This document shows positions 871 to 3,774 of a stretch of 56,815 bases of DNA, piece by piece. This DNA is from Microcaldota archaeon (GTDB lineage Archaea; Micrarchaeota; Micrarchaeia; Micrarchaeales; CABMGC01): NCBI GenBank assembly GCA_028867145.1, contig JAGWGX010000004.1, positions 1 through 56,815 on the forward strand. The letters run 5' to 3'. The translations under genes and the position numbers were made by a program. How positions within the stretch are numbered: position 1 is the stretch's first letter; the number at the start of each line of letters is the position of its first letter. The notes under the pieces were generated by a model. That model did no database searches. It was not told the origin of the DNA and was given only the letters and a program-made list of their open reading frames with translations.

Positions 871-880
871 GATTTAAATA
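871..880 (+). promoter_or_regulatory. TATA element of the nrdR-nrdJ operon
   Basis: The AT-rich box GATTTAAATA is preceded by A-rich sequence resembling a BRE. It predicts transcription start near 900-905, giving a leader of about 55 bases before the nrdR start codon at 959. The two NrdR-box-like palindromes lie just downstream of this predicted start. Confidence 0.5.
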
Positions 881-905
881 ACTAATTGTTTAAGTAGTTC
901 CGGCT

Positions 906-953
906 GTACTATATCTTGTATGTTCTACGAGAGTGGTATACCATATGTTGTGG
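906..953 (+). promoter_or_regulatory. Tandem NrdR-box-like operator
   Basis: Two 16-base elements, GTACTATATCTTGTAT (906-921) and ATACCATATGTTGTGG (938-953), each match about 11 of 16 positions of the published bacterial NrdR-box consensus (core CwATATnTwGT). Their starts are 32 bases apart, which is the three-helical-turn spacing typical of paired NrdR boxes. They sit between the predicted transcription start and the nrdR start codon. Binding of NrdR there would repress nrdR-nrdJ when dATP is high. The match was made by eye. Confidence 0.55.
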
Positions 954-958
954 TTTTG

Positions 959-1429
959 ATGCGTTGTCCGTACTGTCTTTCGACTGACATTCGTGTTCTT
1001 GATTCAAGAGACGTCGAGGAGGAAAACAGCGTGCGTCGAAGGAGGCTGTGCAACGCCTGCACCAAGCGATTTACCACCTATGAGAAGGCTGAGCTAATCG
1101 ACCTTGTGGTCATCAAGAAGGACGGCACCCACCAGCCATACGACGCCGCAAAGATACTAAACGGTATCACAAGGTCCTGCGAGAAGCGCCCTGTCAACCA
1201 AGATGCAATAATTGAGGTAGCAAACAAGATTGACCGAAAGATTAGGGCAAAGGGAGTCAAGGAAATCACCACCAAGAAGATCGGGGAGATGGTGATTAGG
1301 GAGCTGGTCAAGCTAGATCCAGTAGCATACGTGCGATTTGCGAGCGTTTACAACCAGTTCAACTCAACAAAGGAGTTCACAAGGATCATCTCGATGTTCA
1401 ACAAGAAGCGAGAGCAGCTCGAGAAATGA
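959..1429 (+). CDS. nrdR: NrdR, ATP/dATP-sensing repressor of ribonucleotide reductase genes
   Basis: NrdR represses ribonucleotide reductase genes when its ATP-cone domain binds dATP. The protein from ATG 959 is 156 residues, close to the usual 150. It opens with MRCPYC and has a zinc ribbon with Cys 3, 6, 31 and 34, followed by an ATP-cone of about 90 residues starting at VVIKKDG. An in-frame ATG at 920 would add 13 residues. I prefer 959 because the family begins exactly at MxCPxC and because the operator overlaps codons of the longer form. The gene lies 23 bases upstream of nrdJ, so the pair forms an autoregulated operon. NrdR is mainly a bacterial regulator and much less usual in archaea. 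Confidence 0.93.
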   Translation: MRCPYCLSTDIRVLDSRDVEEENSVRRRRLCNACTKRFTTYEKAELIDLVVIKKDGTHQPYDAAKILNGITRSCEKRPVNQDAIIEVANKIDRKIRAKGVKEITTKKIGEMVIRELVKLDPVAYVRFASVYNQFNSTKEFTRIISMFNKKREQLEK

Positions 1430-1452: not shown

Positions 1453-3774
1453 ATGGAAGAGCAAAAAACGGAACAAGTTCAGATTCCAAGTGAAACATTA
1501 GATTTCTTTGACCGAGACGAGCTTAGGGCAAGGGTATTTTACGAAAAGTACACCCTAAGGGACGTGAACGGCATAAAGATGGAGAAGACCCCTCCAGAAA
1601 TGTGGAGAAGGGTCGCAAACGCAATGGCAAGCGCGGAGGAGACGGATGAGACAAGGAAGGAGTGGGAGGCAAAGTTCTACTGGCTGCTTGAGAACTTCAA
1701 GTTCGTTCCAGGAGGAAGGATCATGTTCGGCGCAGGGCAGGCAAAGAAGACCACCCTGCTTAACTGCTATGTAATTCCAGTTAAGGAGGACTCGATAGAG
1801 GCCATCTTTGATTGGTGTAAGGAGGCAGCAAGGACTTACAGCTTCGGCGGAGGAGTGGGGGGCGACATCAGCGCGCTAAGGCCAAGGGGCGCAAGGGTGA
1901 ACAACTCAGCATTATACTCAACCGGATCGGTCTCGTTCATGAACATAATGAGCGAAACGACCGGAACAATTGGTCAGGCAGGAAGAAGGGGAGCGCTAAT
2001 GATAACAATCAGGGTGGACCATCCTGACGTGCTTGACTTCATTAGGGTAAAGAGAAACCTAAGGAACGTCAGGTTCGCAAACATCTCGCTTAGAATAACC
2101 GATGCATTCATGCACGCAGTTGAGAAGGACACAGACTTCACGCTCTGGTATGACACGCCAAAATCAGGAAGGATAGAGAGGACAGTTAGGGCAAGGGAGC
2201 TCTGGAATGAGATAATTGACAGCGCAAGAAACTGGGCAGAGCCTGGACTCATCTTTTGGGACAACGTTGTGCGCGGATCACCAAGCGAGTACAACGGGAT
2301 GAATGTGATCACGACAAACCCATGCGCAGAGCAGCCGCTTCAGGCATACGGAGCATGCGACCTTGGTCACGTAAACCTGCCAATGTTTGTAACAAACAGC
2401 TTCAATGACAACGCCACAATTGACTGGGCAACTCTTGAGACCGCAATTAGGTACGGAGTGCGTTTCCTAGACAACGTCCTGACATACAACATGGACAAGC
2501 ACCCGCTAAAGGAGCAGGCACAGGCGAGCAGGGAGTCAAGAAGAATCGGGCTTGGATTCACTGGCCTAGCTGACATGCTAATTAGACTCAAGATAAAGTA
2601 CGACTCGCAGGAGGCTCTGGAATTTGTCGACAACCTGATGAACAGGATGAAGACAATCGCCTACGATGAGAGCACGATGCTTGCAAAGGAGAAGGGCTCA
2701 TTTGGCCTCTTCGATGCGGAAAAGCACCTCACAATGCCATTCGTTGAGGGTCTCGCCCCAGAGATAAGGGAGAAGATAAAGAGCAATGGCCTTAGGAACG
2801 TCGCAATACTCACAATCGCGCCTGTCGGAAGCGGATCAGCATTACTGGGCACCTCTAGCGGCATCGAGCCAATCTTCGCGTTCAGCTACACAAGAAGGTC
2901 GGAGTCACTTTCACAGGAGTTCTTCAAGGTTTACCACCCTCTTGTCGCACAGTACATGGCGCAGTACAGACTTGAGAGCGAGGCTGATTTGCCAGAGTTC
3001 TTCGTGCCGGCGCACAAGATCAAGGCAGACTTCAGGGTAACGATGCAATCAGTTGTGCAAAAGCACATTGACTCATCAATCTCATCAACTGTCAACCTTC
3101 CGGAGAACGTAACCTCAGAGGAAGTGGCAAAGATTTACATGCAGGGATGGAAGTCGGGCTGCAAGGGAATAACCGTCTACAGGGAAGGATCAAGAGAGGG
3201 AATTCTAATCACCGATGAGAAGCAAAAGGAGAACAATAAGGCAAAGGGAATTGTTGAGGAGACAAAGGAGTGGTCAAGGCCAAAGGTAATGGTCGGCGAC
3301 ACGGTCACCTTCAGGCTTCCAAACGGCGCAATCTATGTTACAATTAACAGCGATGATAGGGGACCAAAGGAGGTCTTTGCTAACATGGGAAGGAGCGGAA
3401 GCGATGACAAGAGCTACACGGAGGCGATTGGAAGGCTCGCCAGCATGTACCTTCAGTCTGGAGGGGATGTGAAGGAGGTGATCAAGAGCCTCAAGGGAAT
3501 CCAGGGAAGAAATGCAACGTGGGACCACGGGGTGCAGCTGCTCAGCGTCCCTGATGCGATTGCAAAGGCGCTTGAGCTGGTCGTAAACAAGTCACATCAG
3601 GCGGTCATCGACCAGAATGTGGTCAAGGTGGCGGAGGTCACAAAGCTTCAAACCACCGCGAAGGTGGAAAAGCAGGTTGGGGTAATGGATTGCCCTAAGT
3701 GCTCCGAACGCGCGCTCGTGAGCGAGAACGGATGCGACCACTGCCAGAGCTGCGGCTACAGCAGGTGCGGTTAA
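1453..3774 (+). CDS. nrdJ: Adenosylcobalamin-dependent (class II) ribonucleoside reductase
   Basis: This enzyme reduces ribonucleotides to deoxyribonucleotides using a B12-derived radical and needs no oxygen or second radical-generating subunit. The 773-residue protein has the redox-active Cys 105 in LLNCYVIP, and the finger-loop triad N289, C291 and E293 in NPCAEQ. The C-terminal tail (CPKCSERA...CDHCQSCGYSRCG) is a Cys-rich zinc-ribbon type end that in this family carries the external redox thiols. There is no N-terminal ATP-cone. It is co-transcribed with nrdR. The enzyme requires cobalamin, but no cobalamin genes are seen here, so uptake or salvage elsewhere is implied. Confidence 0.95.
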   Translation: MEEQKTEQVQIPSETLDFFDRDELRARVFYEKYTLRDVNGIKMEKTPPEMWRRVANAMASAEETDETRKEWEAKFYWLLENFKFVPGGRIMFGAGQAKKTTLLNCYVIPVKEDSIEAIFDWCKEAARTYSFGGGVGGDISALRPRGARVNNSALYSTGSVSFMNIMSETTGTIGQAGRRGALMITIRVDHPDVLDFIRVKRNLRNVRFANISLRITDAFMHAVEKDTDFTLWYDTPKSGRIERTVRARELWNEIIDSARNWAEPGLIFWDNVVRGSPSEYNGMNVITTNPCAEQPLQAYGACDLGHVNLPMFVTNSFNDNATIDWATLETAIRYGVRFLDNVLTYNMDKHPLKEQAQASRESRRIGLGFTGLADMLIRLKIKYDSQEALEFVDNLMNRMKTIAYDESTMLAKEKGSFGLFDAEKHLTMPFVEGLAPEIREKIKSNGLRNVAILTIAPVGSGSALLGTSSGIEPIFAFSYTRRSESLSQEFFKVYHPLVAQYMAQYRLESEADLPEFFVPAHKIKADFRVTMQSVVQKHIDSSISSTVNLPENVTSEEVAKIYMQGWKSGCKGITVYREGSREGILITDEKQKENNKAKGIVEETKEWSRPKVMVGDTVTFRLPNGAIYVTINSDDRGPKEVFANMGRSGSDDKSYTEAIGRLASMYLQSGGDVKEVIKSLKGIQGRNATWDHGVQLLSVPDAIAKALELVVNKSHQAVIDQNVVKVAEVTKLQTTAKVEKQVGVMDCPKCSERALVSENGCDHCQSCGYSRCG

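Follow-up and report, generated by a model that had tools for sequence, protein, structure and literature searches.

Positions 906-953 of the analyzed DNA very probably represent a genuine two-box operator for the repressor NrdR, situated in the archaeal TATA-type promoter of an nrdR-nrdJ operon; the transcription start, the binding of NrdR with its dependence on nucleotides, and the resulting repression are deduced from the sequence and its context. The window, i.e., the whole stretch of DNA analyzed here, comprises 56,815 nt on the forward strand of contig JAGWGX010000004.1 from the Microcaldota archaeon assembly GCA_028867145.1. The gene order in this region is rnhB, operator, nrdR, nrdJ, and the following features were assigned:

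873..880, + strand: TATA-like element TTTAAATA, 8/8 to TTTAWATA, 33 bp before box 1
906..921, + strand: predicted NrdR box 1, GTACTATATCTTGTAT, joint top NrdR-consensus score in the window, kept in relatives
922..937, + strand: spacer of 16 bp, conserved within the genus only; as RNA it can pair with box 1
938..953, + strand: predicted NrdR box 2, ATACCATATGTTGTGG, joint top NrdR-consensus score in the window, kept in relatives
959..1429, + strand: nrdR, 156 aa, Zn-ribbon and ATP-cone repressor beginning with MRCPYC (TIGR00244, PF22811, PF03477)
1453..3774, + strand: nrdJ, 773 aa, adenosylcobalamin-dependent class II ribonucleotide reductase (RNR) directly behind nrdR (TIGR02504, PF02867, PF00317, TSCPD)

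The upstream gene rnhB, encoding RNase HII (63-765), shows an apparent frameshift around 253-326, with its N- and C-terminal parts in different frames. It is one intact frame in the congeners, and the break in the window could be a sequencing error.

Sequence and Rarity of the Operator Boxes

The initial annotation had described two NrdR-box-like sites of 16 bases, standing 32 bases apart, and both the coordinates and the spacing were confirmed (32 bp from start to start, equal to a gap of 16 bp). It had counted about 11 of 16 matches per site by eye; the near-match as such holds, and the strict count is slightly higher, each box agreeing with the published bacterial consensus acaCwAtATaTwGtgt at 12 of 16 positions (W = A or T). 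Both boxes retain the conserved G-C pairs (C4 and G13). Weighted scoring against the background bore out the likeness. With the case-weighted published consensus each box reached 18/22, and the two are the sole positions with this score, hence the top two, among the 56,800 of the window. Their paired score of 36 at a distance of 30-33 bp is the highest in the window, where the best pair using neither box reached 29, a value equal to the average top pair of the window shuffles. The score of 36 was obtained in none of 5,000 shuffles of positions 766-958 and in none of 100 shuffles of the whole window. A strict consensus search (ACACTATATATAGTGT, up to three mismatches) gave no match in the window, because both boxes are imperfect and differ from ACACTATATATAGTGT at more than three bases. 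The looser published regular expression is expected to find about 2.4 pairs per 57 kb, which is background level by itself, and due to this lack of specificity it was excluded from the evidence.

The ranking of sites over the whole genome was carried out with profiles built from relatives. Profile R1 combines the operators of 11 relatives, with the own genome left out, and gave a single match at E<=10 in the 681-kb assembly, namely 905-956 with E=1.2e-11, a score which is inflated because four congeners of the window archaeon are included in R1. Profile R2, composed of 31 operators and likewise built without the own genome, again returned the 906-953 site alone, matched on both strands as expected of a palindrome. 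The operator of nrdR-nrdJ is thus the only one seen in the genome to which the window belongs.

Promoter Architecture and Adjacent Genes

The position of the boxes downstream of a TATA element and between the predicted start site and the nrdR start codon, as previously annotated, was corroborated. From the archaeal spacing to TTTAAATA, transcription is predicted to start at about position 903, just 5' of box 1, and the ATG of nrdR follows at 959. Given this predicted start, both boxes would lie within the first 50 transcribed bases. An upstream in-frame ATG at 920 was rejected as the NrdR start, because the proteins of the family begin with MRCPYC, here at 959, and some congeners lack the upstream frame. 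Among 35 homologous operators, 29 have a TTTAWAW element no more than 50 bp upstream of box 1 and two have it downstream, and the distance from TATA to box 1 ranges from about 5 to 44 bp. Since TATA lies upstream of box 1, the boxes would cover the predicted start or the early transcript.

The gene right after the operator encodes a true NrdR, as had been anticipated, and is followed by class II nrdJ. The NrdR protein matches TIGR00244 over its full length with 178.6 bits, 54 bits above the cut-off of 124.65, and solved NrdR chains match it at E ~1e-39. It comprises a Zn-ribbon with two CxxC motifs (PF22811) and one ATP-cone (PF03477), and cysteines 3, 6, 31, and 34 are invariant in the archaeal NrdR relatives. 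In the NrdR of Streptomyces coelicolor, which requires two boxes about three turns apart, D15, R17 and a set of arginines touch the DNA (PMC9110341). All of these DNA-contact residues (D15, R17, R26-29, and R37) are found in the NrdR of the window; among 26 archaeal relatives, D15, R17, and R27-29 do not vary, and R26 and R37 hardly do. NrdJ matches TIGR02504 with 553.8 bits (cut-off 399.95).

Distribution of the Operator in Related Archaea

For the comparison with relatives, draft metagenome assemblies were sampled, comprising 37 genomes of the family and 295 of the phylum. TIGR00244 was found above cut-off in 29 of the family genomes and in 133 of the phylum genomes. Homologous promoters examined for boxes at the same spacing do carry them: wherever nrdR is directly followed by nrdJ in the family, the operator is present (11/11 loci), the boxes being spaced by 31-32 bp and the first base of box 1 lying 52-54 bp upstream of the nrdR start codon. 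At loci with other nrdR gene orders it was detected in only 1 of 18 cases (G025), and in these genomes the operator stands instead before nrdJ or before the class III gene nrdD (G030, G033). The 35 distinct operators are spaced by 32 bp in 21 cases, by 31 bp in 13 and by 29 bp in one, so that the gap is 15-16 bp in 34 of them. Positions C4, A6, T11, and G13 occur in all 70 boxes of this set, an invariance which is partly built in because the scoring chose those boxes. In a MAFFT alignment of the 12 nrdR-adjacent operators the same four positions are prominent, C4 and G13 being invariant, and across genera the spacers diverge while the box cores stay.

The operator co-occurs with the repressor. 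Among 30 nrdJ loci, an operator was located near nrdJ in 22 of 22 NrdR-positive and in one of eight NrdR-negative genomes (Fisher p=3.9e-6), and such p-values are too small because related genomes are not independent. In the 295 phylum genomes, NrdR and operator were found together in 95, NrdR only in 38, the operator only in seven and neither in 155, with losses spread over several genera. The 38 of 133 NrdR-positive genomes with no operator at E<=0.01 may reflect strict filters, incompleteness or real divergence. Operators accompanied by no detected NrdR (e.g., G067:C6:2747-2793, G081:C4:20790 and those in G251, G283, and G286) would be explained either by missing contigs or by recent NrdR loss.

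In the sister family f2 (e.g., G055:C40, L030) NrdR is missing from most genomes. Weak matches to the NrdR model are here ATP-cone-like stretches within frames of about 760-800 aa that seem to encode RNR enzymes, and L030 matches NrdJ at 37%; these stretches might replace transcriptional control. A further peculiarity was observed in G008:C66, G009:C45, and G032:C1 and also in G071 and G077, where the nrdJ match is split by about 1 kb within one frame of about 1,150-1,200 aa, a pattern expected of an intein.

Alternative Explanations

Three other readings of the element were weighed against an NrdR operator. The boxes could be a relic of bacterial nrdR-nrdJ DNA which was transferred to the archaeon together with its operator and in which the boxes have lost their function. 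In favor of this, NrdR occurs typically in bacteria and has been described as rare in archaea, and the haloarchaeal nrdR was acquired along with class I RNR genes by transfer (PMC3019208). In our NrdR tree, however, the archaeal proteins stand on one side of a branch with 99/93 support against 71 bacterial NrdRs, the family itself being supported with 100/100, and we therefore regard NrdR as a resident archaeal lineage rather than a recent one-off transfer. Moreover, the box cores persist across genera while the spacers diverge, and the operators move with nrdJ when the gene order changes and are absent in seven of the eight NrdR-less genomes, which makes a relic very improbable. It is even harder to credit that the palindromes serve a regulator other than NrdR. 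Operator matches also precede a DJ-1/PfpI gene and one gene for which no assignment was obtained, but the elements fit the NrdR consensus and spacing, RNR genes are the main targets and the operator co-occurs with NrdR.

The element could also act mainly as a structured 5' leader RNA of nrdR, mediating attenuation or translational control, with the likeness to NrdR boxes being secondary. Positions 903-958 fold at -15.9 kcal/mol (z=-2.96), the genus mean is z -2.5 with boxes fixed and spacers shuffled, and the spacer is conserved within the genus and pairs with box 1 (window 903-958; L003, L004, L008, L024). In other genera, however, z averages -0.55 and the spacer sequence varies, yet boxes and spacing are kept. 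The same boxes precede different genes at varied distances from the TATA box, and paired palindromes spaced by 31-32 bp are the arrangement known for NrdR. As its support is confined to the genus, leader RNA was rejected as the main explanation, and we consider it extremely unlikely.

Proposed Mode of Action

The earlier proposal that NrdR controls class II RNR in this archaeon gains support from the rarity of the box pair, its conserved spacing, the adjacent genes for NrdR and NrdJ and the co-occurrence with NrdR. NrdR would bind here and repress its own gene together with class II nrdJ. In the proposed model, the dATP/ATP-loaded repressor would sit over the start region and bend the operator DNA, and thereby the assembly of TBP, TFB and RNA polymerase, initiation or escape would be blocked. 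A block of this complex is proposed because the boxes overlie the predicted start and the early transcript. When dATP drops, the ATP form of NrdR would release the DNA and nrdJ would be transcribed. The variation of the TATA-box distance suggests that NrdR may cover the start in some relatives and act as a roadblock in others.

Comparison with Known NrdR Systems

Bacterial NrdRs bind box pairs with gaps of 14-17 bp (PMC12051234), a range which includes the 16-bp gap at 906-953; this gap sets the two boxes apart by full turns of the helix. The closest parallel is nrdRJ of S. coelicolor (PMC9110341), where a protein of the same family is combined with two boxes about three turns apart before an nrdR-nrdJ class II operon; D15, R17 and the RRRR motif of that protein are kept in the archaeon. 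In contrast to the bacterial sigma-factor promoter of S. coelicolor (PMC9110341), the promoter described here is of the archaeal TATA type with both boxes downstream of TATA, and compared with the S. coelicolor boxes the archaeal ones drift to the form ayACwAyATrTwGTrk. As in the regulons of E. coli, Listeria, and Streptococcus (PMC12176259, PMC12051234), the gaps measure 15-16 bp and several RNR classes, including class III nrdD, are placed under one repressor. These bacterial NrdRs control class I operons, whereas in the archaeal family the operators precede class II and some class III genes. Furthermore, the bacterial regulons are described for RNR genes, while some archaeal relatives also have operators before B12 genes.

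Within archaea, nrdR of haloarchaea likewise stands beside RNR genes, namely class I nrdAB (PMC3019208). The class I genes of that system were acquired by transfer, and an operator has not been described for them (PMC3019208), whereas in the present case class II RNR is combined with an operator that is conserved and with an NrdR forming a clade of its own. According to a review from 2014, archaea lack the NrdR box (PMC4009431), later papers describe NrdR as rare in archaea, and within the accessible literature NrdR-box surveys covered bacterial genomes. Since the boxes were called absent in archaea (PMC4009431), the operator would be new to a domain in which it was thought to be missing. NrdR has been treated as bacterial, and here operator and NrdR clade span an archaeal class. 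The findings suggest that NrdR acts as a switch at eukaryote-like TATA/TFB promoters, or did so in the past, and they would provide a clean system to study the way in which a repressor of bacterial type blocks transcription initiation in archaea.

Operators before Cobalamin-Related and Other Genes

In some relatives, operators were also identified before genes related to cobalamin. Two-box operators with a TATA element directly precede a gene encoding a large Peripla_BP_2 binding protein at L152/L285 (G034:C40:18295-18342) and L269/L286 (G026:C16:122696-122740). In both genomes this gene is divergent from an ABC ATPase and a permease, the latter matching BtuC best among the NCBIfam models, though below the cut-off, so that the locus resembles an ABC transporter of the B12 type, and in G034 the next gene after the Peripla_BP_2 gene encodes a PduO cobalamin adenosyltransferase. 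Seven further genomes from three genera carry the operator before a gene for a protein with a B12-binding domain (G035, G010, G170, G027, G073, G081, and G075, corresponding to L274, L268, L270, L294, L296, L298, and L300). These proteins have 700-1300 aa with a central B12-binding domain, a repeat-like N-terminal part and an unrecognized C-terminal part. Among the homologs of the B12-binding protein in the sampled set, six of 13 are preceded by the operator, and for the homolog in the NrdR-less G011 the operator was not found. The operators before B12 genes suggest that NrdR links class II RNR to the provision of its cofactor, and we are inclined to favor the view that in this archaeal family it couples the enzyme to cobalamin by controlling B12 genes besides nrdR, nrdJ, and nrdD. 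A link between NrdR and B12 import was not found in the open-access literature. If real, it would constitute a new regulatory logic, in which a single dATP sensor adjusts an enzyme together with the availability of its cofactor.

Single operator matches were detected before other genes. A strong palindromic two-box operator in G020 (L146, G020:C26:9421-9473; R2 E=2e-6, both strands) is followed by a gene to which no Pfam or NCBIfam model matches, and one match precedes the DJ-1/PfpI gene mentioned above. In G024 an NrdR-type operator (L141, G024:C13:19057-19110) stands before a gene encoding a uridine-kinase-like/CYTH fusion, which is a possible nucleotide-salvage target.
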